IMG/VR virus record: IMGVR_UViG_3300043409_001235 | Coordinates: 1-50,682 of that record | From: a virus | DNA length: 50,682 nt | Reading direction: 5' to 3' (one strand) | In this document: positions 3,991 to 30,445 of the stretch, piece by piece | How the letters are laid out: each line of letters begins with the position of its first letter | How positions within the stretch are numbered: the first letter of the stretch is position 1 | Notes under the pieces: model-generated | Databases searched by the model: none | Seen by the model: only the letters and a program-made list of their open reading frames with translations | What the model was told of the DNA's origin: nothing | Program-made: the position numbers and the translations under genes

Positions 3991-3994
3991 ACTA

Positions 3995-4002
3995 TATGTA
4001 TA
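3995..4002 (-). promoter_or_regulatory. Late-promoter-like box directly upstream of the portal start
   Basis: TATACATA, one mismatch from the T4 late consensus, ending four bases before the portal ATG. The stretch TATACATATAGTATG differs by one base from TATAAATATAGTATG before the gene at 11,312. Whether it is used as a promoter is uncertain, since initiation would fall at the start codon. Confidence 0.4.
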
Positions 4003-4008
4003 AGAATT

Positions 4009-4536
4009 TTATACAGCGCCAAGAATCATTTCGTGGTAATCGTATGCTATAGTTATAGTAAATTCTGCAAATGAATCTACCATATCATAACTTAAATCTA
4101 TAGGACTGATATCCACAGGCCAACAATTATGTAATTTATATCCACGACCGGCCCCCAGCGAACCTCCTGGATTTCCTTGACCAGTACCATCGTTGTAAAG
4201 TACCTGCCAATCTTCTGTCTCATTATAAGATATTTTATGAGTCAAAAATCCGTCCATCATTTCTATCCAGCTTTCAAAACCATCTCGAAGGTTTTCGATA
4301 CTACTGTCATATACTGTTACTGCCCATTCGCCGAACTGTCTATCGCCAGAAAATTTTATCTGTCTTCCTTGAAATGACACAGGAATCATTCCTATTTGTG
4401 TACCTGGTATACTTAAAGCTTTAACATATATCTCGCCATTTTCTGTACCGAGCGGACCTTTGTCGCCGGAAGTGACAATTTTATATCTATTTGCTCTAAC
4501 ACCATTAAAATTATCTCGAAATCCTTGAATATCCAT
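4009..4536 (-). CDS. 19: Tail tube protein, gp19-like
   Basis: A 175-residue tail tube subunit, the protein that stacks in hexameric rings to form the inner DNA channel inside the sheath. Length is near T4 gp19 (163). Family features include the start FRDNFNGVRANRYKI, the FESWIEMMDG helix, the CWPVDISPIDLSYD segment near residues 138-151 and the C-terminal strand EFTITIAYDYHEM. It has an AAGGAGA ribosome-binding site and lies directly after the sheath gene. A second protein of the same fold is at 42,328-42,897 on the other strand. Confidence 0.95.
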   Translation of the reverse strand: MDIQGFRDNFNGVRANRYKIVTSGDKGPLGTENGEIYVKALSIPGTQIGMIPVSFQGRQIKFSGDRQFGEWAVTVYDSSIENLRDGFESWIEMMDGFLTHKISYNETEDWQVLYNDGTGQGNPGGSLGAGRGYKLHNCWPVDISPIDLSYDMVDSFAEFTITIAYDYHEMILGAV

Positions 4537-4561
4537 GTTTTTTCTCCTTAATTAAATTCTT

Positions 4562-5950: not shown

Positions 5951-5994
5951 ATAATATCTCCTTGTTGGTTACATTATATATAAAAATCTATATT

Positions 5995-7719: not shown

Positions 7720-7720
7720 T

Positions 7721-8143
7721 TTAATCTTCCATTTCCTTTAAAGGACTGCGTTCTCGATTAATTAAGTTTTGTAACTCGGAAGTAGATCCAACATAGATTG
7801 AATTGTTTGTGGTATTTTTAATTGTTACTTTTTTAGATTCTGCATCTGTTAATTTATCATGTATATCAATCAAATCTTTATTCATTTCACTTAGAGTTTT
7901 CATCATATTAGTAAGAACTTCATATGCTCGAGGAGAATCACTTTCTGTTGCAACCTTAACTATACCTTCCATTGCATCCATTCCAGTACTTATCAAACTG
8001 TGAATATTTTTTCTAGCAGAGTCAAAATCTCCTTGTAGTGTTTCATTTTTTTCTGTTACATCTACCTTGTCAATTACTACTAATGGTAGGGTTTCAAAAT
8101 CAACACCAAGCGCATTTGATATTTTTAAATCAGAGTTTTTCAT
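7721..8143 (-). CDS. 16: Terminase small subunit, gp16-like
   Basis: A 140-residue small terminase, which forms a ring that regulates DNA recognition and gp17 activity. The region ARKNIHSLISTGMDAMEG followed by SPRAYEVLTNMMKTLSEMN is typical of the T4 gp16 central helical domain. The start at 8143 is preferred over an upstream in-frame ATG at 8170: it gives an ATGA overlap with the stop of gp15 and an AGGATT site, while 8170 has no ribosome-binding site. It lies directly before gp17. Confidence 0.9.
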   Translation of the reverse strand: MKNSDLKISNALGVDFETLPLVVIDKVDVTEKNETLQGDFDSARKNIHSLISTGMDAMEGIVKVATESDSPRAYEVLTNMMKTLSEMNKDLIDIHDKLTDAESKKVTIKNTTNNSIYVGSTSELQNLINRERSPLKEMED

Positions 8144-8889
8144 AATCCTGCTGTATTTCCTGGCGACCATGTAATAGATCCAGTAATACTGTCTCCTGTA
8201 TATCCTATATCTGTTAAAAATTTATTATTAATAACATCCCCGTCAAATATATCTATATCTACAGTTTCGATAATAGAACTACTTCTAATCTTAATTGGAG
8301 AATAAATATAACCTTTCATAGTAAACGAAATAACAGATATTATGGATCTTCTATTATCAAAATCGCCTTCATATTCTTCATTCACTTGTACATCTGTTAA
8401 TATAATAGGAATATCTACTTTTGTATAAAAATCATTCATATTCATAGTTACAGTAAAATCAGGAGTAAAAAATGGAACAATTTGTTCTATTATTTGTAAA
8501 TTTTGTTCTGAACTTCTAGAAAACACATACAAAACAAAATTAAAATTATAAGGAGATTCTGAATAAGCTGTTTTTGTTATGTTGTTTGTTGTTTTATTTT
8601 TTTCTTTTAATTTGTTTATTCTTCTCATAGGATCATATTGTAAATTATTCAACTCAAATCCTATTCTTGGTAAAGACATCTGGACGTGTGTCTGATCAGT
8701 AATACCACTTTCAGATATTATCTTTTGAATAAATTTTTCTTTTGGGCCATAACTTAATGGAACTCTTGTTTTTTCAATTCCAGAACTACGCACAGTTTTG
8801 ACATATAAAGAATTGAATAACGAACCAAACCCAATAACATGTTTTCTTATTGTATTGTCAAAACTGTCATCTATTATTTGATTGAACAT
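8140..8889 (-). CDS. 15: Tail sheath stabiliser / tail completion protein, gp15-like
   Basis: A 249-residue protein of the T4 gp15 type, the hexameric ring that caps the finished tail and joins it to the neck. Family features are the segment HVQMSLPRIGFELNNLQYDP, with the following RINKL, and the central IIEQIVPFFTPDFTVTMN. Length is near T4 gp15 (272). It is coupled to its neighbours on both sides: TAATG with gp14 and ATGA with gp16. Confidence 0.95.
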   Translation of the reverse strand: MFNQIIDDSFDNTIRKHVIGFGSLFNSLYVKTVRSSGIEKTRVPLSYGPKEKFIQKIISESGITDQTHVQMSLPRIGFELNNLQYDPMRRINKLKEKNKTTNNITKTAYSESPYNFNFVLYVFSRSSEQNLQIIEQIVPFFTPDFTVTMNMNDFYTKVDIPIILTDVQVNEEYEGDFDNRRSIISVISFTMKGYIYSPIKIRSSSIIETVDIDIFDGDVINNKFLTDIGYTGDSITGSITWSPGNTAGL

Positions 8890-9833
8890 TAGTATTTGCC
8901 CTCACTAAAAGGATCTATGTCTGTAAAGTCGAATATATCAATTCCAGACGATTGTAGTTGATCATTGTCAACAACATTCAATCCTGTACTTGGATCTTTC
9001 TGTGTTATTATATTAGAAACAGAAGACGATCCTTTAAGATAATATTCTCCACCAGAGATTGCACCTTTTATAGTCTGTGTTGCGGCATAAGAAATTGTTC
9101 CACTTATGCCTGTTATATACAACTGACTCTGTGTAGTTCCCTTAATAAATTGTAAGGAAATTGCTGTTGAAGTTGCAGCACTGAGAGTTGCACCAACTCC
9201 AGTAACACCAAGTACTTGATATAGTGGTTCGCCGGCCAGTATTATGTTTCCTGTTAGTCCAGATAATGGATTCAGTGATAAAGGAGCAAGTATGGCATAC
9301 GATTTTCTCGAATCTTCCACTTTGTCTATGTCTGTAATACCAGTATCGATATTTTCGCCACTATAGGTAAAGAGTTCAACATGTAGAGTATATGTGGTCA
9401 ATCCACCTAATTGATAAAATGGTGTCTCGTCTTCTACGAAGTCTATTTCAAACAAACTACCCGATAAAGGAAAATAAATTAAATCGCCCTCTCTTGGTTT
9501 TTTTATTTCATTTCTATAAGACGAGATTTCGGTTTCAAATCTAGTTCTAGAAACAGACAGGGTTGTTCTATCTGTAATTTGAATTCCAAATTTTGCAACT
9601 ATATCTCTATTGCCTTGAAATTTATCAGTATCTATCATATACATTTCAATAGGATATCCCTGCGAAAACTTTGATTCTGGATCTTCTCCAAACAAATTGT
9701 CTATAATTAAATAATCTCTAGGAATATAGACCACATCTCTACCCATTGCTTTGATTGTCTCAATAGTCAGATCATTTATTAATCTCTGTTCTAGTTTAGA
9801 ATCATAACTTTTAAAATATGGATTTGTTGCCAT
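8889..9833 (-). CDS. 14: Neck protein, gp14-like
   Basis: A 314-residue neck (head completion) protein of the T4 gp14 type, which with gp13 closes the portal after packaging and forms the tail docking site. The conserved start NPYFKSYDSKLEQRLINDL and the segment MGRDVVYIPRDY are diagnostic, as is GDLIYFPLSGSLFEIDFVED. It is somewhat longer than T4 gp14 (256); the extra length is a Gly/Ser/Thr-rich region around residues 200-280. Order gp13-gp14-gp15 is as in T4. Confidence 0.95.
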   Translation of the reverse strand: MATNPYFKSYDSKLEQRLINDLTIETIKAMGRDVVYIPRDYLIIDNLFGEDPESKFSQGYPIEMYMIDTDKFQGNRDIVAKFGIQITDRTTLSVSRTRFETEISSYRNEIKKPREGDLIYFPLSGSLFEIDFVEDETPFYQLGGLTTYTLHVELFTYSGENIDTGITDIDKVEDSRKSYAILAPLSLNPLSGLTGNIILAGEPLYQVLGVTGVGATLSAATSTAISLQFIKGTTQSQLYITGISGTISYAATQTIKGAISGGEYYLKGSSSVSNIITQKDPSTGLNVVDNDQLQSSGIDIFDFTDIDPFSEGKY

Positions 9834-9853
9834 TTATTCTTTCTACGTTCGTT

Positions 9854-10657
9854 TCAACCTATAAAAAAGTCACTTGGCATTTCGTGAGTACTTATTAACT
9901 CTTGTTCAATTGCTTGAATTTCCTGAACAGCTTCTGCATATATCTGCGCACCTTTAGTTGTGATTCCACCAGGAAGTTGAACTCCATCGAATTTTGACAT
10001 ATTTGTTCCCCATTGTCTTTTGATTAGAGAAGTTACATATTTTTTCATTAATCGATCATCATATATTTCTGTGTATATGTCTGGATTAAGTGCAGCATAT
10101 GCTTCAATTATGATATACGCTCCAGGGGTCATATCTTCCATATACCCATCTATATGAATTTTATTTGATACTTTATTGAATCGTATTGCTTTCTCAGGGG
10201 AAAAAAACTGTTCAATCAAACTAATATATCTCATAGTAGAAGAATATTGAGGTAACCCTAAATTAGCATTAGCTCCTAATCCTCTATTAATTCCAAAATA
10301 ATCAGTTAATGCCATCTGATATCTTATGTCAAACATATTAATATTTGCAAATCCACTAAATCTGAATAGTTTAATAACAGACACAATAGTTGTGCCATCT
10401 GGACCATCTCCTGTTATTCCGCTTGGTGGTAATAATAATTCGGTATTTATAGATTTAGTTGATATGTCGTTTTCAGTTAAAACGTGTTTAAAATAGACTT
10501 TTTCGACACCATCAAAGTGTCGTTCAGCAAATAACTCTAAAGCTTCATCTACTCGATCCAGGCACTGTTCATAATCGACATTTATTTCGATTACAGGGTA
10601 CCCTAGATTTCTGAATGCATATTTAATAATAGCATCTTTAGAATTAACATTTCCCAT
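9854..10657 (-). CDS. 13: Neck protein, gp13-like
   Basis: A 267-residue neck protein of the T4 gp13 type, partner of gp14 at the head-tail junction. Diagnostic segments are AFRNLGYPVIEINVDYEQ near the start, LFAERHFDGVEKVYFKHVLT, and the C-terminal LPGGITTKGAQIYAEA followed by a Glu-rich helix. It has its own exact late promoter (10,674-10,681) and an AAGGAGATATTAT ribosome-binding site, and begins the head-neck transcription segment that runs to the left edge. Confidence 0.96.
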   Translation of the reverse strand: MGNVNSKDAIIKYAFRNLGYPVIEINVDYEQCLDRVDEALELFAERHFDGVEKVYFKHVLTENDISTKSINTELLLPPSGITGDGPDGTTIVSVIKLFRFSGFANINMFDIRYQMALTDYFGINRGLGANANLGLPQYSSTMRYISLIEQFFSPEKAIRFNKVSNKIHIDGYMEDMTPGAYIIIEAYAALNPDIYTEIYDDRLMKKYVTSLIKRQWGTNMSKFDGVQLPGGITTKGAQIYAEAVQEIQAIEQELISTHEMPSDFFIG

Positions 10658-10703: not shown

Positions 10704-11312
10704 TTATTCTGGTTTTTTAGGCATAGAAACTTGTATTTTATTAATTTGGTCATAATTTAATGTTTCTATATAGGCTCTTCGTGTGATTGGAGGCACAGAT
10801 TCTGATTCTATCGATTCTTTATAATTACTAAATCCAGGCATCTGTAAAGGACATGCAAGTTTTGGATAGTCTAATTTACCGTATTCTTCACCCTCTCCTG
10901 TTAACCATGTAAGAGGTTTGTCTCCACAACCACACCCACCACAGAAAAATTTACCAGCTGTTGAGCTTTTCCTTATATATTCACATGGTGGTAATTCCCC
11001 ACCAGTGTTTTTGTTACCAAAACAACTCAAAACTCTGAGTTGCTTCAGGGGTAGAGAAACCTTTTCACTGTTAATTCCTTTAGAAGCAAGAGAAGAAATA
11101 AAACTTTTAGCCATAGATATACTTTTTACTACAGAATTTTGAGATTCTATGGTTCTATTTGTAAATATCGGTTCTTGATTTACCTCTGGGGCAACTGATG
11201 GTATATTTTTTGGTGTATTGTCACTATTGTTCATAATTATTTTTTCCTTATTGTATAAAAAAGATTTGCAGGAAGCACCTTCACATTTTTTCTTACCACA
11301 TCCACAACTCAT
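10704..11312 (-). CDS. Cys-rich protein of unknown function next to the neck genes
   Basis: A 202-residue protein not assigned to a family. It opens with the Cys cluster MSCGCGKKKCEGASC and has a second cluster FFCGGCGCGDKP near residue 132, then LDYPKLACPLQMPGFSNY. The paired Cys clusters suggest a metal site or disulfides. The middle is Ser/Lys-rich and probably helical. Position between the fibre block and gp13 suggests a virion or assembly protein (in T4 this is the whisker region, but no fibritin-like coiled coil is seen). There is no normal ribosome-binding site; a TATAAATA ends four bases before the ATG. Confidence 0.75.
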   Translation of the reverse strand: MSCGCGKKKCEGASCKSFLYNKEKIIMNNSDNTPKNIPSVAPEVNQEPIFTNRTIESQNSVVKSISMAKSFISSLASKGINSEKVSLPLKQLRVLSCFGNKNTGGELPPCEYIRKSSTAGKFFCGGCGCGDKPLTWLTGEGEEYGKLDYPKLACPLQMPGFSNYKESIESESVPPITRRAYIETLNYDQINKIQVSMPKKPE

Positions 11313-11316
11313 ACTA

Positions 11317-11324
11317 TATTTATA
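11317..11324 (-). promoter_or_regulatory. Late-promoter box immediately before the Cys-rich gene
   Basis: Exact TATAAATA on the minus strand ending four bases upstream of the ATG at 11,312 (TATAAATATAGTATG). If used as in T4, the transcript would begin at about the start codon. It may instead be chance in AT-rich sequence. Confidence 0.45.
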
Positions 11325-12132
11325 CGTTCACTTTAACAGTTCTTATACATGCACGTAAAGTATTAATATAGGGGCCCATTAGAAATATTGACCCGTATAC
11401 TATATCTAGACCATATAAATAATTATTATTGTTTATATTACTAGAAGTTTTATATCCAGAGTTTGGTGATATAGAAAAAACACTGGAACTTATTAAAGTT
11501 TTAGAATTTGTAGTATTGAGCATTTTATCTATTTCAGTTCTAATCTTTGAATATTTCTCATATTGATTTTTAATAAAAAACAATTCTCCTATAGAGGGCC
11601 AATGCCAATCACGAAATACTGTATTATCAAAATTCACTGGTGGTTGTTTGGAGTTTCCTTCTTCTAATATTAAATTATATTTACCATTATAATATGAAGT
11701 ATTACTTTTTAAGGAATAATCTTTCTTTAAATATGGAAGATCAAACATCTCTGGATATATTATCAATGCATAAGTTTCTGTATCTGTTGATGTTATCGTA
11801 TTTATTTTATCGTTGAAAGATATACCAATTGGTGCGTAAATACCTGCATAAATTCCTCCAGCAAACATAGAACCTATTTTTATATTAGACAAAGAAGAAC
11901 TAGAAATATTATGTGATGTCCAAAAATTTGTATTATATTTTTGTAAATCTGGATACATAGATCCAGTACAACCTACTGCTTTGTGGTATATACCATCACA
12001 ATTACCACTCAAACTTTCAGTACAATTAGCGGATATAATATCACTTTCTGTTTTATAATTATACCTATAACAGGATCCCCAATTCTCTCCAGAAGCTAAT
12101 AAGTACGAATAATCAGATAAAGATGATGACAT
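11320..12132 (-). CDS. Putative tail/fibre protein with Lcl/DUF1566-like domain
   Basis: A 270-residue protein. The segment GSMFAGGIYAGIYAPIGI (87-104) followed by WHWPSIGELFFI (176-187) and the C-terminal RACIRTVKV matches the layout of Lcl/DUF1566-type domains, which carry a W-x-x-P-S-x-x-E-L motif and often occur in surface adhesion proteins. A clearer relative is the C-terminal half of the protein at 21,521-23,284, which shows the same two segments. Ribosome-binding site AAAGGATATACAAC. It is the last gene of the fibre block; a surface or receptor-related role is inferred only. Confidence 0.7.
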   Translation of the reverse strand: MSSSLSDYSYLLASGENWGSCYRYNYKTESDIISANCTESLSGNCDGIYHKAVGCTGSMYPDLQKYNTNFWTSHNISSSSLSNIKIGSMFAGGIYAGIYAPIGISFNDKINTITSTDTETYALIIYPEMFDLPYLKKDYSLKSNTSYYNGKYNLILEEGNSKQPPVNFDNTVFRDWHWPSIGELFFIKNQYEKYSKIRTEIDKMLNTTNSKTLISSSVFSISPNSGYKTSSNINNNNYLYGLDIVYGSIFLMGPYINTLRACIRTVKVNV

Positions 12133-12144: not shown

Positions 12145-12390
12145 TTATGTTTCTAAAAATGGTAAAAATGGATTTGGACATATAGTTTTTGGTGTATAGT
12201 TACTAGTTTTGAGAACTTCATTATCTGATATAGTATATGGTATGAATACACCACCTGTTGCAAAACACGAAGAATGATTATATTGCCCCGTAGTTCCTAC
12301 TAGGGTGATTCCTTTACAACATATTCCATAATTCAAAAGTGAATTATAGTTTATTGCTTCTCCTGATCTAGATCTAAACTGTATATTCAT
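12145..12390 (-). CDS. Small hypothetical protein in the fibre block
   Basis: An 81-residue protein not recognised. It starts MNIQFRSRSGEAINYNSLL and contains GICCKGITLVG and a further Cys pair (HSSCFATGG, KTICPNPF), so it shares the cysteine habit of the surrounding block. The ATG overlaps the stop of the upstream gene by four bases (ATGA), with GGAATATT as a possible ribosome-binding site. Its place in a tightly coupled operon makes it a credible gene, perhaps a small accessory to a fibre. Confidence 0.6.
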   Translation of the reverse strand: MNIQFRSRSGEAINYNSLLNYGICCKGITLVGTTGQYNHSSCFATGGVFIPYTISDNEVLKTSNYTPKTICPNPFLPFLET

Positions 12391-13415
12391 CTTGGAAATA
12401 TTCCTAATAAATTTAAATTGCTTTTAGTATCTATAATATCCATAGAAACAGAATCATTAGAGTTATTGATGGGTTTAACAATTAACGATGATGACACAGC
12501 TGGCTGTGGAACAGGAGTATCTATACATTGTAAACTGTCGCATTGGAATTTTACCACAAAGTCAGTAGTTAATGCTGGATCAGTTGTATCGCATATTCCT
12601 AAAACAAAAAGTCTAATGGTTTTGTACCAAGGGTTTTCTTTATTATCAATTTCAACATCATCTTCTGTTATTGTTATTTTTTTTGTATTCTCTCCTTTTG
12701 CACAGTCTAATACTCCAATTATACTATTATTAAAAGGAACGTCATTAAGACCTAAATATGGGTGGTTAGGCTTATTAAGCGCTGTATTCCATCGGACTTT
12801 ATCATTAGCACTACATGTGCCATATGTAACTAAAGATGGAGAATATGTTGATCCTGCATTTTTAGTACCAAGTATAATAAATTTATCAGCTACAGTATAA
12901 GAATCTGTCTCGACACATACTGATATTTCTTTTTTATTAGTAATGGGATTTGTCTCAAATGTTGCACCGTGTAGGTATAAATTAAATGACGATAAACATA
13001 ATCTTGAACTCCATGTTATAGTAGTATCACATAAAGTAATTTGTGGAACACACTCACAGTTTATAGAATCACATGATTCATTTCCCATATACACTGCACC
13101 CGAAATTCCAACACAGTCATTGTATGATACATTAGGAATACATTCTCCTCCTATACAACAAGCGCCTGGTGTATTAAATAACCAGTTACATGTAATATCA
13201 ACTTCAACTGTTCTAGGAGGATCTCGACTGTTATCAACATAACTGGTACGTTGACACGGAATCTTATTGAATATTCCTTCGACAAGATTACATTCAGTTC
13301 GAGTATATCTATCCGCACATCTTAAATATACAGCTTGTACCATAGGTACAGGTGTCAGTGAAGAATCTACTGGTATACAACAAGAAGTCTGATATGCTAT
13401 AGGAACACTAAACAT
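12387..13415 (-). CDS. Cys-rich putative tail/fibre protein
   Basis: A 342-residue protein with about twenty cysteines. Around residue 100 it contains the module GACCIGGECIPNVSYNDC followed by GISGAVYMGNESC, a pattern (GxCCxxxxC, C, then GGxxxGxxxxC) found repeatedly in this block and known from secreted proteins of aquatic bacteria. The C-terminal half is beta-rich without clear motifs. The ATG overlaps the TAA of the upstream gene (TAATG), whose last glycine codons supply the GGAGGAG ribosome-binding site. A virion surface protein is the likely role, inferred from block context. Confidence 0.75.
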   Translation of the reverse strand: MFSVPIAYQTSCCIPVDSSLTPVPMVQAVYLRCADRYTRTECNLVEGIFNKIPCQRTSYVDNSRDPPRTVEVDITCNWLFNTPGACCIGGECIPNVSYNDCVGISGAVYMGNESCDSINCECVPQITLCDTTITWSSRLCLSSFNLYLHGATFETNPITNKKEISVCVETDSYTVADKFIILGTKNAGSTYSPSLVTYGTCSANDKVRWNTALNKPNHPYLGLNDVPFNNSIIGVLDCAKGENTKKITITEDDVEIDNKENPWYKTIRLFVLGICDTTDPALTTDFVVKFQCDSLQCIDTPVPQPAVSSSLIVKPINNSNDSVSMDIIDTKSNLNLLGIFPR

Positions 13416-14764
13416 TATACTCCTCCTCCACCAAATCCACCACCAGCACCACCACCACCAAATCCATCAAATCCATCGCCGCCACCACCACCATATCCAC
13501 CATCATTGTTTTGACCCATATACCCATCAAGATCACCAAACCCAAAACACGGGTCCCAACAATCTATTACACTACATCCTTTGTTATCAGTGACTTCAAC
13601 AGACCAATGTCTTCCTCCGTGTTTTTCACACAGAAATCTAGAAATATCATTTCTACAAATACCATTGATGCAACAAGATCCAATTTCTTGTAATTCTATA
13701 TTAGTATTATTGCATATACCATATATACAAAAAGTTCCTCCAATGGAATCACAGAACTCTTTAGTAATATAACCTTCACAAGTCACACCTTTACTACAAG
13801 ATCCTAATATTTGTGAAGGTAAACAATCTCCAGGACTAGCACCATATCCTTTACCAAAGAAGTTTGCCTTCCATACAGCACCATTATTTTCTGTGATTAA
13901 ATTTAATATATTTTCTCCACAGCTTAAATTTGCTTCTCCTGGTCTAAACCAAACATTATTTGGAAAATTCCACACAGAATCGTTTTGTATTATAAGAGTT
14001 ATCGACAATAATTCTCCAGTAGATCCAGAAGCTCCAGAAAATCCAGTGAATCCCATAATACCGTTTGGTGTATTTATATAAAATACTCCTGCTTTGGATA
14101 CATCTAGATAAGAACCACTGCTACCTAAAACTTGTTTTTCTAAACTACTTATTATATTATTTGTGATTAATCTAGTAACATATGGGGTATTACCTCCTGG
14201 AATATTTGTGTGTAATATATCTCCAGTAAACCTCATATCTGTTGTTATACCAGCTAATTCTGTGTTAGATTTAAAATAAACTAATGAACCTTGTGAAATA
14301 CCAATAGATGATTGTGTATTGTTTGGACTATCTATACTAATGAAAGTAATTCCAGGAGTTATAGTAATTCCGTTAACACTTGATGTTAACCATTTGAAAT
14401 TAAAAGTAGCAGTAGAACCCGATCCGATTGTTCCTGAGTATGTAATATTCTTTAATAAAGAAATATATGAAGTTGAAGATGCAGCAGAACTAATACCATA
14501 TGCATCAAATAGTTTGTTTCCTACAAAAACTGATGCATCAATATTTTCTACATTATTATTACTATAAGTTATATTAAAACGGCCGTAATTGGTTGATACA
14601 GCAGTTTGTGTAATACTTGTTATATGAGGTGCTGTATTTCCTCTAGATAATACACCACAATCTTCTACTCTATCATTTCCAGTATTCCCAGTTGGACCTC
14701 TAGCTCCATATGCTCCTGGATTACCAGTGAATCCACTAAAAGATATTGCACTAGATCCTATCAT
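13415..14764 (-). CDS. Fibre-like protein: collagen-like start, Cys modules, Gly-rich tail
   Basis: A 449-residue protein built as N-terminal collagen-like Gly-X-Y repeats (GNPGAYGARGPTGNTG, about 13-28), a long Ser/Thr/Gly/Ile beta-rich shaft, two Cys modules (GSCSKGVTCEGYITKEFC and GSCCINGICRNDISRFLC, about 330-385), and a C-terminal tail of almost pure glycine with Phe and Asp. This is a typical trimeric phage fibre layout with added Cys modules. The final GGA GGA GTA codons act as ribosome-binding site for the next gene. It starts with an ATGA overlap with the giant Cys-rich gene; AAGGAGAGG precedes the ATG. Confidence 0.75.
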   Translation of the reverse strand: MIGSSAISFSGFTGNPGAYGARGPTGNTGNDRVEDCGVLSRGNTAPHITSITQTAVSTNYGRFNITYSNNNVENIDASVFVGNKLFDAYGISSAASSTSYISLLKNITYSGTIGSGSTATFNFKWLTSSVNGITITPGITFISIDSPNNTQSSIGISQGSLVYFKSNTELAGITTDMRFTGDILHTNIPGGNTPYVTRLITNNIISSLEKQVLGSSGSYLDVSKAGVFYINTPNGIMGFTGFSGASGSTGELLSITLIIQNDSVWNFPNNVWFRPGEANLSCGENILNLITENNGAVWKANFFGKGYGASPGDCLPSQILGSCSKGVTCEGYITKEFCDSIGGTFCIYGICNNTNIELQEIGSCCINGICRNDISRFLCEKHGGRHWSVEVTDNKGCSVIDCWDPCFGFGDLDGYMGQNNDGGYGGGGGDGFDGFGGGGAGGGFGGGGV

Positions 14765-17700
14765 AGGTAAGGACTTTCCTCTCCTTTAAGATGGCGGTTT
14801 GGATTACAATCATAACAATCTTTATCAAACCCTATAAATCTTCCATTTTTCTGATCACAATCTCCTGGAGTAGTACTCAAACATGTATATAAAGCCGGAA
14901 ATACTATACGACCATTTTCGTCGACGACTGGTTCTTCAACAGTATTTAGACAACACGCACCAATATAATATTTGCAACAATTTTCTCTCATACAATCAGC
15001 TAGTATTCCCTGATCTGCACTACACATTTTATTGTATTCCCATGCAAATGCAAATTTTGGATCTGGTCCACTACAACCCGGCTCTGTTGTAATACTACAA
15101 GACGTTTCCCATGTATATACATTTGTCTTACAACATGCACCAGTTGAGCCTGGTGGACCAGTAATAACTCCACCATCTGAACAAGGATCATCATCACACA
15201 TCTTGTTTGCATCCCAATTACCTGTACATTTACATTGTACAGTATCAGTACAGCTGGTACCTATACAACATGCACCAAGTTCAAACTGATTCGAACTACA
15301 GCCTCCTACAAGATTTTGACAATCCACGTGATCTGTAAATTGTCCTTGTTTTAAAAAACATGAGAATTCATCAAAATTATCACCACATTTTGTGTTTTCC
15401 CCCTCAATATAACAACACGAACCTATTCCTGTAACAACACACTCAGGATTTGGTTTTATGTATCTATTATTCAACCAAGCTTCAGAAGAAATCAATGGAT
15501 ATGTTGGAGTATAGTGCACATGAATATCACTGTAAACAGGATCTAGTATTTCATAATCTGTTGTAATTCCTGCTTCCGCTATAACACGTATTTTTCTTCT
15601 TGGTATATAATCCGTATATGGATCATTTCTAGATATAGGTGTTGATGCTTCTTCTGTTGTATTAAATACTCGAGCAGTATCTCCATATGATTCTACTTCT
15701 CTCCACGCCGATATCGGACTACCGGGCAACCCAGTAAAAGCACCTGTATAGTATCGTGTTCTACCTTTTATACTATAGATCTTTCCAATCTCGTCTGTAG
15801 TTTGTAATGTGCCAGATAATCCAGGATTTGATCTGTAATATAAAACAGGACTAGATCCTTTTATGTCTATTTGACACGGCGCATAAGTTATTAATTTTTT
15901 TACTTCGGCGCCAACTATTGTTTTATAGAAAACTTCATCAATCTGATTAGGGGTATTGGTATTCGGATCCCATGCTTCAATTGGTATAGTTGCATAATCA
16001 TATCTATTTCCCCAACACATAAAATGTCTGGAAATGGCACCAGCTGGTGTTGTACAACGACACACAGTGCACGTTTCCCCAGTCTTTCCAGCAGAAATCC
16101 AATCCCAAGAACCTACGCTGCCGATTGTGCCTAACCGGTTATCACATACTTTATCTGCTGAAATCATAGAAATATATGGCATTGCACCCGTACCACCATG
16201 CCATATTGGATGGTCTTCGTGTCCCAATGTTACTCCATATTTAAAACAACAGGTAAATCCTAGAGAATAAGAAGTATTACACATATCATAATTAATTATA
16301 TTACCGTCTTTAAAAGAACATACATTATTATCAGAATCAAATACTCTAAATTCTATTGGAGTTGCACCATCCATTCCTGTAAGGCCTATATCGTATAATT
16401 TATCTTTTTGATTAGTATAAGATATTTCGTTTACACATTTCATCATATTGGGACCATATTTATTTGAGGCAAACAAAGATAAATCCCTTGAATCTCCTCC
16501 AAATAAATTAATATCTGCTGTAGACCATTTTGTTTTTGTTTGATCTATTTTGCCGTAGGTCTGCCCAGAAAATTGAATCAAATATGGTACAGTTTTTATT
16601 TGAGGAGGACCAAGTATATTGTCTACTCTCTCTATACCAGCATCCCATTTTCCTAAACTAACTACTGCATGTCTTTCACCTACAGCAATTTGATTATAAA
16701 AAACACTAGTATACATGTCTTTTTCGACATCACACGTTCCAGAAGAAGAATATAAAGAACAATAGGTATGACCCACAACATCCCCACACGTCGTGCCTGG
16801 ACCTGCCATGAAATTGTTGGGATATAACATATTTGCTATTCTAAATATTAACAAATCTGGTCTTTCACCAAATACACCCATAGTATATCCAGTATAATTA
16901 ACCATAACAACAGGATTACTATTACCAGTTGTTCCACACACAATCTTGGGAGGAAGAGTAGATCCCACAGGATAAGTAATATCATTTATAACAATTTCGC
17001 GTGGTAATCCAATACTTCCACCAGGATAACCATAATTGTATATATCATTAGCAAGTTCCACACAATCTGCACTCCATCCACTAGACGAACAGCAATTAGG
17101 ATAGAAAGAACATACCAAATCTGAGCAATACGAACATCCAAGTGGAGAACAGTATCCAGCCGGATTGTTGCAAGTACATCCTGCTATACCTACTATACTA
17201 TGAGTAACCCCACAATTATTCATAGATATTCCCTGTGGAAAAGCAGAAAGATAATTAAATCCAAATGGTCGATACGGAAGAACATTCATATTAGACCACA
17301 GAGTAGCAAATACATCACCTTCAGAACTTATACCCACACCAATTGAATAATCGTTAAACGTTGATCCACATAAAACACGAGGTGGAATTACATCTGGATC
17401 ACAAGGTTCAACTGGTGCAACAGGATTACAAGGTATTCTTAGATTTGTATATTCGATGTTATTGATATTCCAAGTAAGAGTTGGACCATGTGGTGGACCT
17501 ACAGGTAACATAACTCCCTGTTGGTATATCAAATTAGAAACAGTAACGCAGTCTGCACTCCACCCTGTTGGAGATGTACCTATATAATTTGATACATCAC
17601 AACAAGCTGGCATTAACAAACACACCATATCTGTACAAAAAGAACAGCCTACAGCAGAACAAGGTGTTAGTGAATTAGCGCATGTGCATCCTGGCAAAAC

Positions 17701-19404
17701 TACATCACCCTCAATACCGACAAGAGTTTTATGTACAGTACTACAATTTGATGATGCTGAAATTTCTATAAAATCGTTTTGATGTACTTTATCATTTCTA
17801 GATCTATTTCCATCTATAAAATATGGAACAGCAGTAAAGTCCAACGATAATTGCATTAAGTCTGAGAAATATAGATCAGATTTTGTTCTGGCACTGAATT
17901 TATCTTTATCGATAATTGATATATAATTTTTGTATATGACTCCACTCAAAAAGGTTGGAGAAACATAAGAAAAATATCTTGATCCTTGTGCAACTTGAAG
18001 GGGGTTCGTGACACTAAAATAATTACTTTCATTACCGCCAGGGAAATTTATTCCCTGTTTATTACTTCCTAATATTTGATTTTTGTAAGAAGATATAGAA
18101 GTATACCATGGTCTATTAGAGTCACTTAAACCATATACATGACTATACGATTCTACACCATTCGGATTACAATTAGGTATTCCGTTTATCAACCCACATG
18201 TAGGAGTTTTATTTATAGGTAAAATAATTGTACTTGATATTCCTTGTATGGATTTCGGGTTTAGTGTTTTATAATAATCCTTTATATTATAATGAGGACA
18301 ACATGAAATAGTTTTACATAAACTACCATTACCTTGACCACAAGTCGGACATGGACCTTCTTCTCCTTCTCCCCCCGATTCGTTTTTACCTGAACCAGAT
18401 CCTGAACCAGATCCTGAACCAGATCCTGAACCAGATCCTGAGTCGTCATCAGGAAGACAAGGTTCGCCATCATTACATGGAGGATTTTGACAACATTGAG
18501 GACATCCATTCACACCACAAGAACCAGTACAATCACAGTCAGGACAACTTCCTTCGCCACACCTTACGCAAAAGCCATCACATGGAGGACATCCTGGACT
18601 TCCACATGGTCCATTACAAGTCGTACATGGAGGACATCCAGGAGTGCCACATATAGGACATGGACATTGAGGACATCCAACAGTACCACATCCTTCTGGA
18701 CAAGTTATATCATCACCACCACAACCCCCAAATCCACCACCACTTCCGCTACCACTACCACTTCCGCTACCACTACCACTTCCGCGGCCACTACCACCGT
18801 CGTTGCCGCATAGAGGACATCCATTCACACCACAAGAACCAGTACAATCACAGTCAGGACAACTTCCTTCGCCACATTTTGTTATACAACTGCCACCACA
18901 TGGAGGACATCCTGGACTTCCACATGGTCCATTACAAGTCGTACATGGAGGACATCCAGGAGTACCACAGGCGGGACAATACCCACTACATGGTCCATTA
19001 CAATCGCCACTACCACACCGAGGACATCCTGGAGTTCCACATGGTCCATTACAAGTCGTACATGGACATTCAAGAGTGCCACAGACGGGACAATTACCAG
19101 TACATTCAGGACATTCGTTTACACCACATGAGCCAACACAACTACACGGAGGACATCCATAATCACCACAATTTCCAACACAAACACCGCCACCACCACC
19201 GCCACCATTACACGGTATACCGTCACCTCCTACTGATAACTCATAACAAAATTCATAAGTTAAGCCGGGTATTAGACCATCTATTTTATATTTTTTTATA
19301 ATAGGAGGGGCATTATCGAATGCATATTTAGAATATCCAATCTCATATAACTCACAAATTTCTGCACAATGTGGCGCATTACATGGACAAGTATTTCCTA
19401 TCAT
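14761..19404 (-). CDS. Giant Cys-rich tail/fibre protein
   Basis: A 1547-residue protein, not assigned to a family. Residues about 65-380 are a dense array of short modules such as CNGPCGTPGCPRC and CTGSCGVNGCPLC, broken by two Gly-Ser linkers. Two later domains (about 585-660 and 745-820) each carry the pattern VC-x4-P-x-CC followed by GWSADCV and a helix, a Cys motif known from large secreted bacterial proteins. The C-terminal 200 residues hold four more GACC-type modules. The start is the ATG at 19,404, which gives an ATGA overlap; an in-frame TTG at 19,410 is less likely. Cysteine load implies disulfide or metal cross-linking, so folding outside the reducing cytoplasm or after lysis is inferred. 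Confidence 0.8.
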   Translation of the reverse strand: MIGNTCPCNAPHCAEICELYEIGYSKYAFDNAPPIIKKYKIDGLIPGLTYEFCYELSVGGDGIPCNGGGGGGGVCVGNCGDYGCPPCSCVGSCGVNECPECTGNCPVCGTLECPCTTCNGPCGTPGCPRCGSGDCNGPCSGYCPACGTPGCPPCTTCNGPCGSPGCPPCGGSCITKCGEGSCPDCDCTGSCGVNGCPLCGNDGGSGRGSGSGSGSGSGSGSGGGFGGCGGDDITCPEGCGTVGCPQCPCPICGTPGCPPCTTCNGPCGSPGCPPCDGFCVRCGEGSCPDCDCTGSCGVNGCPQCCQNPPCNDGEPCLPDDDSGSGSGSGSGSGSGSGSGKNESGGEGEEGPCPTCGQGNGSLCKTISCCPHYNIKDYYKTLNPKSIQGISSTIILPINKTPTCGLINGIPNCNPNGVESYSHVYGLSDSNRPWYTSISSYKNQILGSNKQGINFPGGNESNYFSVTNPLQVAQGSRYFSYVSPTFLSGVIYKNYISIIDKDKFSARTKSDLYFSDLMQLSLDFTAVPYFIDGNRSRNDKVHQNDFIEISASSNCSTVHKTLVGIEGDVVLPGCTCANSLTPCSAVGCSFCTDMVCLLMPACCDVSNYIGTSPTGWSADCVTVSNLIYQQGVMLPVGPPHGPTLTWNINNIEYTNLRIPCNPVAPVEPCDPDVIPPRVLCGSTFNDYSIGVGISSEGDVFATLWSNMNVLPYRPFGFNYLSAFPQGISMNNCGVTHSIVGIAGCTCNNPAGYCSPLGCSYCSDLVCSFYPNCCSSSGWSADCVELANDIYNYGYPGGSIGLPREIVINDITYPVGSTLPPKIVCGTTGNSNPVVMVNYTGYTMGVFGERPDLLIFRIANMLYPNNFMAGPGTTCGDVVGHTYCSLYSSSGTCDVEKDMYTSVFYNQIAVGERHAVVSLGKWDAGIERVDNILGPPQIKTVPYLIQFSGQTYGKIDQTKTKWSTADINLFGGDSRDLSLFASNKYGPNMMKCVNEISYTNQKDKLYDIGLTGMDGATPIEFRVFDSDNNVCSFKDGNIINYDMCNTSYSLGFTCCFKYGVTLGHEDHPIWHGGTGAMPYISMISADKVCDNRLGTIGSVGSWDWISAGKTGETCTVCRCTTPAGAISRHFMCWGNRYDYATIPIEAWDPNTNTPNQIDEVFYKTIVGAEVKKLITYAPCQIDIKGSSPVLYYRSNPGLSGTLQTTDEIGKIYSIKGRTRYYTGAFTGLPGSPISAWREVESYGDTARVFNTTEEASTPISRNDPYTDYIPRRKIRVIAEAGITTDYEILDPVYSDIHVHYTPTYPLISSEAWLNNRYIKPNPECVVTGIGSCCYIEGENTKCGDNFDEFSCFLKQGQFTDHVDCQNLVGGCSSNQFELGACCIGTSCTDTVQCKCTGNWDANKMCDDDPCSDGGVITGPPGSTGACCKTNVYTWETSCSITTEPGCSGPDPKFAFAWEYNKMCSADQGILADCMRENCCKYYIGACCLNTVEEPVVDENGRIVFPALYTCLSTTPGDCDQKNGRFIGFDKDCYDCNPNRHLKGEESPYL
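18389..18441 (-). repeat. 12-bp tandem repeat encoding a Gly-Ser linker
   Basis: Tandem copies of gaaccagatcct (plus-strand reading) encode the SGSGSG linker of the giant Cys-rich protein. A second, less regular Gly-Ser linker lies near 18,735-18,795. Such repeats can change copy number and so linker length. Confidence 0.8.
18498..18650 (-). repeat. Internal duplication, copy A (copy B at 18,813-18,968)
   Basis: About 150 bases inside the giant Cys-rich gene recur 315-318 bases away at 18,813-18,968, in the same frame and nearly identical except for a short divergent patch. The unit encodes several Cys modules. The near identity shows recent in-frame duplication. Confidence 0.85.
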
Positions 19405-20225
19405 GGACAACCACCTCCACCATCATCATCGCCGCCACCATCATCGTCACCACCACCATCATCATCGCCACCATCATCATCGCCGCCACCATCATCGTCA
19501 CCACCACCACCACCACAGTCTCCTTTGGTAACCCATCCATTTGCTGCAGCATCCCATTGTTTACTACAAGGTTCTTGGTCGTCATAACAACCCCATTCTT
19601 CAGATTTACAAGCACAACAAGCGCAGATTGCCTCGCGAGCAACTTCTCCCGTGATTTGATTAAGTGGTGGACATGCAGTATCGCACCCACCACATGTACC
19701 GCAAGCGTGTGCAGATTCCACGCCGGGACAACATTTGTTGCCGTTACACCCTGGCCAAGTTTTGGAGACACTTATAGCTGCTGGACATACTTGACCAGGT
19801 ACCTCTGGCGTGGGCCATTTGTCTGGTGCAGATCCACAGCATATGTGATAATCTGGTGCTACTTTGCAGCCATAATGTGACAAATCCCACCACGCCGTGA
19901 CAACATCACCACACAGTTTTTCTGGTGGACCATCAAAATCAGCTGTTGGATCTGGTCCGCTTTGTGGAGCTCCACTAAAAGCTTGAGGTCTGCCTGTCTC
20001 TCCAGCTTCACACGAACAACACTCTGTACGGGCTGCAAAACAATAATGCGACAGTTTGAGACCAGTTGGACCTAATGGAACTGAATTTCCATTGGAATCT
20101 GTCCCACCACCACCATTTTCTTTGCCATTTAGTTGAGTGAATGGAGGACAACCACGACACAACGCATCTTGGCAATACTTATATTGCCTAGTCGGCGTCC
20201 ACACTGTTTTTGATGTATGCGACAT
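19401..20225 (-). CDS. Cys-rich protein with Asp-Gly repeat tail
   Basis: A 274-residue protein not recognised. It has about thirty cysteines (for example ECCSCEAGETGR, CGTCGGCDTACPP, CACCACKSEEWGC) and ends in roughly 35 residues of DDDGG units followed by CP. The Asp-Gly tail looks suited to bind Ca2+ or to form an extended acidic spacer; this is inference. Its Gly codons supply the GGAGG upstream of the next gene, which overlaps by ATGA. Its own start overlaps the previous stop (TAATG). The tail is encoded by trinucleotide-like repeats at 19,411-19,515 and may vary in length. Confidence 0.7.
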   Translation of the reverse strand: MSHTSKTVWTPTRQYKYCQDALCRGCPPFTQLNGKENGGGGTDSNGNSVPLGPTGLKLSHYCFAARTECCSCEAGETGRPQAFSGAPQSGPDPTADFDGPPEKLCGDVVTAWWDLSHYGCKVAPDYHICCGSAPDKWPTPEVPGQVCPAAISVSKTWPGCNGNKCCPGVESAHACGTCGGCDTACPPLNQITGEVAREAICACCACKSEEWGCYDDQEPCSKQWDAAANGWVTKGDCGGGGGDDDGGGDDDGGDDDGGGDDDGGGDDDGGGGCP

Positions 20226-21520
20226 TAGACTAAATCACACTCCTCATTAAACCACACACCGCCTGAATATTTCTGATAACAATCAAATTCATTTTCTGCA
20301 TAGCAACTTCCTTTATAACAACATTTACCGATATTACAAGCAAAACACATCTCAGGAGGACATTTATTAAAGGCACCTTCAAAATAAAAGCATCTAACAT
20401 TTCCTACTATCCCCATAAATCTCTCGCACTCGTCCGCATATGTATTTATACAAGTAATACCACCTAAAATATAATCATAAAGACAACAAGATTTTTTAGA
20501 TTCGTATGTTTCGTCTCTTTCAGCACAAGACACTTCATCGAAAGTTCCTCCCATAAGATTACATCCAACTTGGGTAGTGTAATCCATACATCGTCTTGAT
20601 GGCTCTTCTATTTTTGAGAGATAACAAGATCCATACGTTATTCCTATATTATTCTGTGGAGTAAACGTTACACGATTTCCACTAGTAATAGCAACCTGTT
20701 GGTTAAAAAATAGAATTTGATTTGCTATTTCTTTACTAGCACTACGTTTAATATAAAATGCTTGTTCTGTGAATGTAGTACCATTAATAGATGAAATGGG
20801 CACTACATCTAATGAGTTAAAAGTATACCCCGCTAAAGGCATAGTCAGACCCGATTCAGTTCCCACGTTTCTCACACTATCTTTTCTATAATTACTGTTA
20901 TCTAACGTCAAACCAGAAACATCATTTTCCTTTGTAGCTACAAGAGTTAATGTTATATTTTTATTTAAAGAATCCCAAGAATTGTTATCCATTCCTATTA
21001 AACTATAACTAGGATTTACATAAACAAGTTCTCCAGTATTTCCTTGAATAGTATATGGATTAATACCAATAATAGACGATAATGTTATTCCGTTCGAAGA
21101 AGATAATATTCCTATATTACGAAAAGTTATTCCTCTCAATTTAACTATTTTATTAGTTGTTCCTACACCATAGGTAACAGAGTTTGAATTATATTCAGTA
21201 GGATTAGTACTGGCTATAATAGAAATTCCTTCTGTAGTAGTTCCCCTGATATTGAAAAAAGAATTATTAGATTTTGTTGTTCCTGTTGTACCTTTTAAGG
21301 AAGAATTTAATATTAAAGTTAATGTATTTCCAGATCCAAAAGTTATTCCTAGATCATTACCTATAATTTGTATACCAGTTATACCATATCCAGTATTTCC
21401 TTGTAAACAACTTCCAGTGTTCCCTGTTGGGCCAGTTATACCTGTTGCGCCAGTGGGTCCAATATTACCCATACTGCCACCAGAATACTGTATAAATGTA
21501 GGAGAACTACCTCTATTCAT
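20225..21520 (-). CDS. Fibre-like protein: collagen-like start and C-terminal Cys modules
   Basis: A 431-residue protein with N-terminal Gly-X-Y repeats (GPTGATGITGPTGNTGS, about 21-37), a beta-rich Ser/Thr/Gly shaft, and three Cys modules in the last 130 residues, including GSCYLSKIEEPSRRCMD and GKCCYKGSCYAENEFDC with the trailing GGVWFNEEC. The layout is the same as the gene at 13,415-14,764 without the glycine tail, so the two are likely paralogues. It follows the 587-residue gene directly, the TAA of that gene being adjacent to this ATG. Confidence 0.75.
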   Translation of the reverse strand: MNRGSSPTFIQYSGGSMGNIGPTGATGITGPTGNTGSCLQGNTGYGITGIQIIGNDLGITFGSGNTLTLILNSSLKGTTGTTKSNNSFFNIRGTTTEGISIIASTNPTEYNSNSVTYGVGTTNKIVKLRGITFRNIGILSSSNGITLSSIIGINPYTIQGNTGELVYVNPSYSLIGMDNNSWDSLNKNITLTLVATKENDVSGLTLDNSNYRKDSVRNVGTESGLTMPLAGYTFNSLDVVPISSINGTTFTEQAFYIKRSASKEIANQILFFNQQVAITSGNRVTFTPQNNIGITYGSCYLSKIEEPSRRCMDYTTQVGCNLMGGTFDEVSCAERDETYESKKSCCLYDYILGGITCINTYADECERFMGIVGNVRCFYFEGAFNKCPPEMCFACNIGKCCYKGSCYAENEFDCYQKYSGGVWFNEECDLV

Positions 21521-23284
21521 TTAAGAATTAACCTCCCATATTTCAGAGTATATTGTATTTTTTAATGATCTTCCATCACACCTAATTAATCTGATAGGTC
21601 TTATTTTTTTAGAGGTAAGTCTGTCATCTTTTTGTACAGAATATTGATTGTCAAAATTAACAGACCATGCAGATGATCCTATATTATCAGTAGTTATGCC
21701 GTTAGAATATCCTTCTCCTGTTATTCCTGTATAATTGAATGTGCCAGTAGAAGACCAATAATCTCCAAACATTGGAGTTCCTCCAACAGAAATAATAGTG
21801 TCATTCAGATTGTTATATTTACACTGATGAGCAATAAATGATAATTCATTTATACTGGGTATAAACCACGAACTTGTATAGTCCACTACTTTAGTAGTAG
21901 TTGAATTCAAATCTCTTATCGGTTTAGTTGCAGGAGTCATATAATTCGAAGAAAATCTAGAAGATGGGGCATATAAAGAAGGATATAGGTTATTATCTGT
22001 TGTTGTTCCTTGTTCGTAGTACATCTGTGCATTTACCATTCTTACTGTATTGTGTAGACCCCAATCAGAAAACCACCTACCATTAAATCCATGAGTTGTC
22101 CTATTATATATTCTTTCAATTGGAGTTTCATTATATTCTCTTCTAGAACAAGATGGAATGGAATTTTCTTGTATTATTTTTTTATTAACCTCAAAGGATA
22201 AGGAAGTATTGATTATATACCCTTCCTTTAAATTGTTTAATTTATCACCATATGGTTCTACAACTTTACCATATGATTTGATTAAAGGCCCATAATAAAA
22301 TCCTCCATGACTCCATGTATAATTTTGTTGACCAGTAACACCTTCAGATGCTGGATTAATCGACATTATCATTATGTAAGAATCTGAAGAATTGTCACAT
22401 AAATCATAATCATACAGACCATAACCATTATAATCATAGGACGAGGTATATGCCTTTGAAATTACAGTATCATTACTTACTAATTCGGAAAATCCTAAAT
22501 TGCCCCCAAATAGCGGATTTCCATAACAAGCAGAACCCTTTGGGTTATATATTCCTACGACAATTCCATCTTCAAATATATCACCTACTTTTAGTGTATA
22601 TCCAACTATACTGTCTAAACAGGGAATATCTCTTGTAAAACAGGAATATTGATAACATGATCTATTTTGACCAAGGTATAAACTTTTTTGAGAAATACAA
22701 TATGTTCCTGTTATTCCATTATTACAAGTTACTCCATTACAACATCCTCCAGTTCCTCCTATGCATATTTCGTTTTCACAGACAGTTCCCAATCCTTGGA
22801 AAAAATGATCCATTTTTAAACATACATTTTCTGTTGTTTCGTGACACATGCCATTTCCATCACAACAAGCTCCTAATTCATCAACAACATTTTTACATGA
22901 ATTTTTGGTACATGGAATCGGATTCCATACGAATGAAAAATTAAAAGAATTGGCTAAATTATAACAATCACAGTATGAAGTTTCCTGACATGGTAATGCA
23001 GTACTATTTTCTTTATCTCTAAGACAACAAGATCCAATTTGAGAAGAGTTGCATGTTATACCTTGTTGAAAAACTCCTTTTGCTCTATCACAAATATAAG
23101 CATCAGAATGAAAACAAGTACACCCACTTACACCAGTTATTCTACAAGAACCTGTTACTGATTTAAAATTACTTATTATATTATTATCTCTAGTATCTAA
23201 TATGACTTGATCAGATATAGACTCTATAACACTTTCACTTAGTGTTGTTTGTACTATTGGTTTGAGTATTGGTTTAGGAGCCAT
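21521..23284 (-). CDS. Cys-module protein with C-terminal Lcl/DUF1566-like domain
   Basis: A 587-residue protein. The N-terminal 210 residues contain four Cys modules (for example GSCCLRDKENSTALPC and GACCDGNGMCHETTENVC). The rest resembles Lcl/DUF1566 domains: VGDIFEDGIVVGIYNPKG near residue 235, WFIPSINELSFI (473-484), GDYWSST (507-513) and a closing KKIRPIRLIR. These domains occur in bacterial surface proteins and phage receptor-binding proteins, so a role in adhesion at the tail tip is plausible but inferred. Ribosome-binding site AGGAAA. It is the best preserved member of the pair with 11,320-12,132. Confidence 0.78.
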   Translation of the reverse strand: MAPKPILKPIVQTTLSESVIESISDQVILDTRDNNIISNFKSVTGSCRITGVSGCTCFHSDAYICDRAKGVFQQGITCNSSQIGSCCLRDKENSTALPCQETSYCDCYNLANSFNFSFVWNPIPCTKNSCKNVVDELGACCDGNGMCHETTENVCLKMDHFFQGLGTVCENEICIGGTGGCCNGVTCNNGITGTYCISQKSLYLGQNRSCYQYSCFTRDIPCLDSIVGYTLKVGDIFEDGIVVGIYNPKGSACYGNPLFGGNLGFSELVSNDTVISKAYTSSYDYNGYGLYDYDLCDNSSDSYIMIMSINPASEGVTGQQNYTWSHGGFYYGPLIKSYGKVVEPYGDKLNNLKEGYIINTSLSFEVNKKIIQENSIPSCSRREYNETPIERIYNRTTHGFNGRWFSDWGLHNTVRMVNAQMYYEQGTTTDNNLYPSLYAPSSRFSSNYMTPATKPIRDLNSTTTKVVDYTSSWFIPSINELSFIAHQCKYNNLNDTIISVGGTPMFGDYWSSTGTFNYTGITGEGYSNGITTDNIGSSAWSVNFDNQYSVQKDDRLTSKKIRPIRLIRCDGRSLKNTIYSEIWEVNS

Positions 23285-27218: not shown

Positions 27219-27917
27219 TTAAGAGTTTTTATGAACTAGATTATTTAAATATCGTAAGTTTCCGTCTGGTCCAATTTTAAAAATATCCCTATGTGGTTCT
27301 GTTTTTATATTTGTTCCAGCAAAAGATCTTTGATATCCACTAGACTGTGTGAAATTTAATTGATATCTATCAGCACCAGGACTTAATGAAGAATTAAAAA
27401 ATCCATTAGAATTATCATATAATTTTGTGTCCATTTCTGGTGTTATATATTTTTTATCTTCTAATTTAATTCCAATATACTCTCCTGGTGTTTTAGTATA
27501 GTTAAAGGTTATAACATTATTGTTATAGATCCAAAACTTAATACCACTATAATCATCAACAAGATACCATGCCTTTTTAAAAGTAATCGTAGTATCTAGT
27601 ACACTGATAGATTTAAATGGGTCATAGGGTACAGCACCAATCCATGATGGCCCTGTAATAGGATCTCCATTTCCTGACGTGAAATCACCACTGCCCACAA
27701 ATATCCAATTCTTTAATAGGTGATTACTTAATGTTAAATTTTTATAAAAATTTTCCTGAACTTCATTTAATTCTGATGCTTGTAACGCATTTCCTGGTTT
27801 AAATGCGTGTAATATATAATTTGCTGCTGGTAATACTGTAGAAAATTCAATATTCGAAGTTCTAGAATTATAAGGATACCTACTAAGTGGACTATTATCG
27901 GTAAATGGAGGTTTCAT
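27219..27917 (-). CDS. Putative baseplate-fibre connector protein
   Basis: A 232-residue protein. The segment FKPGNALQASELNEVQENF (about 59-77) matches a motif seen near the start of structural proteins of marine T4-like phages, where a PG-x-x-LQ-x-x-EL stretch precedes a helix. The rest is beta-rich with many aromatic residues. It lies directly after the gp8-like wedge gene, where T4 has gp9 and gp10, which attach fibres to the baseplate. Assignment to gp9 or gp10 is not supported by sequence alone. Confidence 0.6.
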   Translation of the reverse strand: MKPPFTDNSPLSRYPYNSRTSNIEFSTVLPAANYILHAFKPGNALQASELNEVQENFYKNLTLSNHLLKNWIFVGSGDFTSGNGDPITGPSWIGAVPYDPFKSISVLDTTITFKKAWYLVDDYSGIKFWIYNNNVITFNYTKTPGEYIGIKLEDKKYITPEMDTKLYDNSNGFFNSSLSPGADRYQLNFTQSSGYQRSFAGTNIKTEPHRDIFKIGPDGNLRYLNNLVHKNS

Positions 27918-27918
27918 A

Positions 27919-29298: not shown

Positions 29299-29299
29299 G

Positions 29300-30442: not shown

Positions 30443-30445
30443 ACT

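Follow-up and report, generated by a model that had tools for sequence, protein, structure and literature searches.

What a block of cysteine-rich genes does in a phage genome is the question raised by the window analysed here, a virus record of 50,682 bases (IMG/VR record IMGVR_UViG_3300043409_001235). The block comprises the genes P3 (12387-13415), P4 (13415-14764), P5 (14761-19410), P6 (19401-20225), P7 (20225-21520) and P8 (21521-23284), which nearly touch or overlap each other and lie between neck-side and baseplate-side genes. Coordinates are those of the window unless another locus is named, and every feature placed between 9854 and 27209, as well as the gene at 33653-36220, is on the minus strand. 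Together with an 81-residue open reading frame (ORF) that carries 4 Cys and overlaps P3 (12145-12390), these genes encode 252 Cys in 3713 residues (6.8%), against 56 in 8259 residues for 19 further structural proteins encoded there, a comparison set that left out the products of 10704-11312, 11320-12132 and 33653-36220. We consider it probable that the block is a modular tail-fibre cluster, in which a collagen-like stalk, a rod of Cys modules and a lectin-like tip would be combined, with disulfides forming within the modules after lysis.

A six-cysteine module in the tail-fibre slot

The initial annotation had proposed that at least five neighbouring proteins share a Cys module, and had called for a profile of it. 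Five neighbours, P3, P4, P5, P7 and P8, do carry the module, which opens with G-x-CC, or nearly so, and continues with four single Cys, G or GG being common between the fourth and the fifth. Twelve window modules were taken as seeds: two in P3 (P3a, residues 10-76, 13188-13388, with a long last loop, and P3b, residues 84-120, 13056-13166), one in P4 (P4b, residues 362-402, 13559-13681), four at the C-terminus of P5 (P5a to P5d, at 15298-15423, 15181-15276, 14992-15141 and 14806-14961, together spanning 14806-15423), two in P7 (P7b, residues 343-392, 20345-20494, and P7c, residues 398-428, 20237-20329) and three in P8 (P8a, residues 84-130, 22895-23035; P8b, residues 138-174, 22763-22873; P8c, residues 179-215, 22640-22750). 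Half-modules stand alongside in P4 (P4a, residues 321-352, 13709-13804, without the second and sixth Cys; 6.7 bits), P7 (P7a, residues 310-334, 20519-20593) and P8. A profile made without any window sequence, from 371 modules found elsewhere, recovered five window stretches at 10 bits or more: residues 84-120 of P3 (23.3 bits), 362-402 of P4 (14.5 bits), 310-334 (P7a, 14.6 bits) and 400-429 (P7c, 12.3 bits) of P7, and 138-174 of P8. In 300 shuffled sets that kept the composition over 60 residues, no stretch reached 10 bits, the best scoring 8.7. P8c scored 6.0 bits with this profile. Profile-library searches matched no Pfam, PHROG or NCBIfam model to the module, and the titles and abstract openings listed by searches of the open-access literature held no description of it in phages or planctomycetes; it is a common but so far unnamed Cys module in the fibres of an uncultured phage lineage.

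The core genes of the window are those of an uncultured T4-like myovirus, with scaffold, protease, portal, tube, sheath, terminase, sheath stabiliser and neck genes at 52-10657 and baseplate and tail genes at 27219-33587. Its portal is ~50% identical to the portals of S-SSM4 and Mosig, and cultured-phage matches amounted to 2501 records for the portal and 960 for the neck protein (head-tail adaptor Ad2, 9854-10657), which borders the fibre slot. In an Ad2 tree that took in 7 cultured rows, and in which long branches were flagged, 17 module-bearing rows and 2 rows without information formed one clade (100/99), its inner branching open, beside 5 Kyanoviridae rows. Since the module-bearing contigs form their own clade apart from the cultured Kyanoviridae included, the window phage is classed as T4-like only and not as a named member of that family.

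The block stands where cultured relatives, between their baseplate and neck genes, keep those for tail fibres; Melnitz-1 and Mosig carry genes with a tail-fibre annotation ahead of the neck gene, and a passage of PMC7029224 describes this slot as a host recognition cluster. Among relatives collected via the portal and via a DNA pattern for the module, homologues of the window fibre genes stand in the same order in many uncultured T4-like contigs, and the 156.7 kb contig behind L071 has the full order from baseplate through P10, P8, P7 and P4 to neck and portal (in reading direction, P9 and P10 precede P8). The cluster has in common with that of Kyanoviridae (cyano- and pelagimyophages) its position between baseplate wedge and neck, its collagen-like repeats and its variable content, but differs from it in Cys: the two cultured slots measured, those of Melnitz-1 and DSL-LC03, contain 0.35% and 0.30% Cys and no module, against 6.8% in the window. 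No match to P5, P8, four module-rich proteins or a P8 homologue was found in cultured phages, and a peptide-pattern search for close fibre relatives found none. Gene position and architecture thus support the initial description of these products as fibre proteins, and the block is probably the tail-fibre cluster, a known kind, with which an uncultured T4-like myovirus recognises its host.

A probable stalk, rod and tip, and the state of the cysteines

P4, P7 and P9 (23297-25297) begin with Gly-X-Y repeats, followed in P4 and P7 by a fibre domain and then by the modules. P3 consists of two modules and a C-terminal domain, and is fused behind P4 in three relatives (L018, L047 and L096). P8 lacks a collagen-like start and has three modules and a half-module ahead of a C-type-lectin-like domain (residues 218-567, 21584-22633); most of its homologues, however, are single chains in which a P9-like collagen start and then modules precede this C-terminal domain, and a Gly-X-Y run is present in 16 of the 22. 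Because GxCC numbers four in most P8-type proteins (18 of 22) and anything from 0 to 28 among 38 P4-type proteins, the P8-type set is a fixed design and the P4-type set a growing array. The suggestion that modules spread within the block therefore fits the P4-type arrays, whereas the fixed four of most P8-type genes imply that part of the set is old. In the window itself, the three IPT/TIG domains of P9 (E 3.6e-15) occupy, behind the collagen-like start, the position where relatives have modules and lectin tip.

An AlphaFold2 model of P8 built with 22 homologues (pLDDT 76, pTM 0.64) places its C-terminal domain close to the C-terminal domain of the Legionella adhesin Lcl (8q4e_A, Z 9.1, rmsd 3.8, 127 aligned of 131) and to a fimbrial protein of Bacteroides (4eps, Z 11.6), further C-type lectins scoring near Z 5; the predicted tip thus has the Lcl-CTD fold. 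P8 scored 24.8 bits against Pfam Lcl_C, below the cut-off of 34.9, and therefore works like Lcl at most. According to the abstract of PMC11162425, Lcl is a collagen-like adhesin whose trimeric C-terminal domain binds glycosaminoglycans. Both designs combine a collagen-like stalk with a C-type-lectin-like end, but the window type has Cys modules between the two, and in the window stalk and tip are on two genes.

AlphaFold2 modelled the three-module stretch of P8, from 30 phage and bacterial rows, at high confidence (pLDDT 91.9, pTM 0.78), each module folding as strand-strand-helix-strand or close to it. Foldseek returned nothing at E 0.001, and VIA-align 2 rows for the module by itself stayed below Z 5. 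Non-redundant modules number 791, of which 738 have lost none of the six Cys. Both losses of C4, in bacterial modules, came together with loss of C1, and four of the eight losses of C2 with loss of C6. Conservation and co-loss favour disulfides within modules, the exact pairs being unsettled, and the modules would then be stiff, internally bonded segments of the fibre. A C3-C6 bond as the sole pairing was dropped after counting C6 further downstream and extra Cys.

It had been argued at first that disulfide-rich fibres are unusual for phages and that cross-linking after lysis would make them very tough. The first point needs softening, since Agrobacterium phage Milano, as described in passages of PMC10491603 and PMC10811340, is a contractile phage with many disulfides that gains robustness from them. 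Milano and the window phage are both contractile and rich in cysteines, and disulfides are proven in Milano; Milano's bonds join subunits in sheath, neck, collar, capsid and baseplate, and those passages mention no such module. Its inter-chain disulfides throughout are in favour of cysteines bonding mainly between chains, which would yield a covalent fibre net after lysis, as are the many Cys of P5 and P6 outside the modules, including the CxxCGxxGCPxC repeat, and the odd Cys numbers of some modules. We nevertheless hold such a net to be unlikely, given the six-Cys framework with its partly paired losses, the single-chain fold predicted at high confidence, and the iRhoms, animal proteins in which modules of the same framework occur in a single chain. 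Cross-linking between chains after lysis is unproven, and the framework better fits bonds within modules. For these, besides conservation and paired losses, there is the precedent that the iRhom domain is stapled by 8 disulfides according to passages of PMC11248996; the state of the cysteines in the virion is what we infer from this.

A phage has its proteins synthesised in a reducing compartment, which would suit modules that take up metal (zinc) in the cytoplasm and stay reduced throughout, and DsbA was found in 0 of the 35 module-bearing contigs searched, the control being positive. Metal binding is all the same highly improbable: some carriers of the same module have secretion-like starts, the domain of iRhom contains disulfide bonds (PMC11248996), and single Cys with a CC spacing look unlike the usual zinc knuckles. 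The sulfhydryl oxidase Evr1_Alr was found in 0 of 50 contigs, from which nothing follows as no control responded.

Several results weigh against the module itself or against the preferred reading of a fibre cluster with bonds inside its modules. The four P5 modules were not recovered by the window-free profile at E 1 and are known by motif alone. Bare GxCC, with 10 copies in the block, is within chance for proteins so rich in Cys (shuffled mean 5.9, maximum 15). Fibre proteins of the window match PHROG weakly (best E 0.0013) and by way of their collagen stretch; a homologue, L161, matched a tail-fibre profile at E 9e-6, in its collagen part. The pairing is blurred by C3: an additional Cys next to the CC pair accompanies 11 of its 13 losses, and C6 is missing as well in 7. 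The absence of DsbA, which counts in favour of the preferred reading too, is weak evidence, since many of the contigs are fragments.

The module in bacteria, the possible host, and a likely iRhom link

A DNA pattern for one module spacing found at least 120 viral and at least 120 bacterial loci, which are lower bounds and non-random samples. By profile, at least 112 viral loci have modules, 45 together with a T4-like core gene of the window kind, 18 with a fibre homologue only and 49 with neither. Among the matches listed, 101 of 120 bacterial loci bear Phycisphaer-, Planctomycet- or Gemmataceae titles; the 19 without such titles include some that look like chance matches. Viral and bacterial arrays align at 36.7% over 376 residues (L162 and L190, E 5e-45) and at 37.5% over 381 residues (L092 and L255, E 1e-40), L190 being titled Myxococcales and L255 just 'bacterium', and P8 matches proteins in 8 planctomycete loci (E 8e-10 to 4e-6). 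The framework together with a profile match is found in P3, P4, P7 and P8, and not in P5. P5 also contains two copies of a second motif, CC-x-W-x-x-x-C; a single copy stands in the product of 33653-36220, and five bacterial loci have it in closely similar form. The likeness to secreted planctomycete proteins, which had been put forward at first, is thus borne out. That it is a convergence of a simple Cys pattern would agree with the gathering of seeds by a DNA pattern in which the Cys frame is set in advance, and with a bare GxCC count not above chance, but the array alignments and the P8 matches make this very unlikely.

By crude patterns, signal-peptide-like starts are found in 64 of 116 bacterial and 1 of 137 viral module ORFs, and collagen-like starts in 2 of 116 and 86 of 137, respectively. 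Phage and planctomycetes, on this evidence from ORF starts, share the module and not the protein class. The planctomycete proteins (mostly of Phycisphaerae) resemble the phage ones in the module, its tandem arrays and its RCC1-like and lectin partners, and differ in having secretion-like starts, proteases and dockerin-like ends (domains judged by eye) and no collagen-like start. One Phycisphaerae protein (L227, 1-6431) has a very long tandem module array. A phage protein with two modules and RCC1-like repeats (L004, 15136-17859) is encoded outside the fibre slot, behind the genes for the head, and this pairing recurs in bacterial L237.

Could the phage infect a planctomycete and use its modules for receptor binding, by mimicking or gripping the module-bearing surface proteins of the host? 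The predominance of planctomycete titles among the bacterial loci listed, the alignment of viral and bacterial arrays at 37% over 376-381 residues and the RCC1-like architecture on both sides would suit this, as would psbA, found in 0 of 50 contigs with a positive control, a result that speaks against a cyanobacterial host. On the other hand, the median G+C of T4-like module loci is 0.379 and that of bacterial module loci 0.615, which speaks against a high-G+C host, and the portal was found in just 1 of 397 Phycisphaerae-class genomes, weakly and at 25% identity (0 of 12 in a smaller search). A tmRNA was found in just one contig, a T4-like one with these fibres (L303, 14357-14749) that also encodes 11 tRNAs; the tmRNA tag, ANNNNYMAIAA, is similar to ANNNYAMAA from the Phycisphaerae class but also to a tag of Desulfuromonas with AIAA at its end, and so does not decide. 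We regard a planctomycete host gripped in this way as doubtful.

The module has a further candidate relative in animals. A profile of 60 single modules, run against 177,635 sequences of the Protein Data Bank (PDB), ranked four iRhoms first (E 1.6e-4, 1.9e-4, 2.1e-3 and 2.3e-3), the next rows being antibodies at E 4.3. A three-module profile retrieved iRhom1 only (E 0.03), and phmmer with one bacterial stretch found nothing. With the phage and bacterial profile the iRhom1 fragment scored 20.7 bits, the maximum of 2000 Cys-fixed shuffles being 18.3. The best PDB match of the module chain in Foldseek was iRhom2 with ADAM17 (8snl_B; 35 columns, 1.8 Å, 34% identity, E 0.86), and 8snl_B superposes on the whole P8 model at 1.9 Å over 40 residues (Z 2.5). 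No rhomboid fold was among the P8 model matches, an absence that excludes nothing. The module thus shares the CC-C-C-C-C core, in sequence and fold, with the iRhom homology domain of animal inactive rhomboid proteins 1 and 2, for which its authors found no similar structure (PMC11248996): all six Cys align, and iRhoms take the top four places of the PDB sequence search. Unlike the phage proteins, iRhom is a membrane protein regulating ADAM17 and has no long tandem array, and the Foldseek E of 0.86 is weak by itself. Sequence profiles and one short superposition carry the match; common descent is likely, though unproven at such length, and our claim is limited to a small domain shared between module and iRhom.

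Other genes of the cluster and a proposed model of the fibres

P5 is the largest protein of the block (1549 residues, 137 Cys). Ahead of its C-terminal modules it has nine copies of C-x(1,4)-CGxxGCPxC linked by Gly-Ser runs (18481-19182), a repeat that was not found in any other locus collected for comparison, and two motifs of the second type (CC-W-xx-C, more fully C..C-x-P-x-CC..W-x-x-x-C) at 17521-17640 and 17035-17130. P6 has 27 Cys in 274 residues and a Gly/Asp-rich tail, without the module. Next to the neck gene, 10704-11312 encodes a 202-residue protein with 10 Cys that is kept in 20 relatives at 48-69% identity and gave no clear family match in library searches, and 11320-12132 a 270-residue, weakly Lcl_C-like protein whose gene is also present in L018, L047 and L096. 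On the baseplate side, the N-terminus of P9 is fused to P8 in relatives, and P10 (25299-27209) is a fibre-cluster protein without Cys, kept in relatives. The richness in Cys reaches beyond the block to the product of 33653-36220, among the baseplate genes, with 52 Cys in 855 residues, one second-type motif at 35495-35587 and a best Pfam match at E 0.01 only. The sole tRNA of the window, a tRNA-Arg (tct) at 49928-50003, has counterparts in three other T4-like contigs of the group.

The genes, their order, the module, its homologues and the predicted fold are direct results of this analysis, and from them the working of the fibres may be sketched. The chains, lacking signal peptides, would be synthesised in the cytoplasm and presumably assembled in reduced form, as trimers on their collagen-like stalks. 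A collagen-like N-terminal stalk with its fibre domain would form the particle end, one to many six-Cys modules the rod and, in the P8 type, a C-type-lectin-like domain of the Legionella Lcl kind the tip. Lysis would free the fibres into oxic water, where the modules, each a small strand-strand-helix-strand unit, may oxidise and come to be held by three internal disulfides. The outcome would be stiff, protease-resistant segments that keep the tip away from the baseplate, and the tip may bind a sugar or protein of the host surface.

Tentatively, at somewhat less than an even chance, the module may represent one undescribed superfamily that runs across phage fibres, secreted proteins of planctomycetes and the extracellular part of animal iRhoms, a domain published as having an unprecedented fold. 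Phages would be among its carriers and possible spreaders between hosts, and its arrays would give fibres that change from a soft, reduced state within the cell to a stiff, oxidised one outside it. The profile match provides the iRhom homology domain, for the first time, with candidate relatives beyond its family. Our results also suggest a testable redox switch in phage fibres, which would be assembled reduced and oxidised after release.

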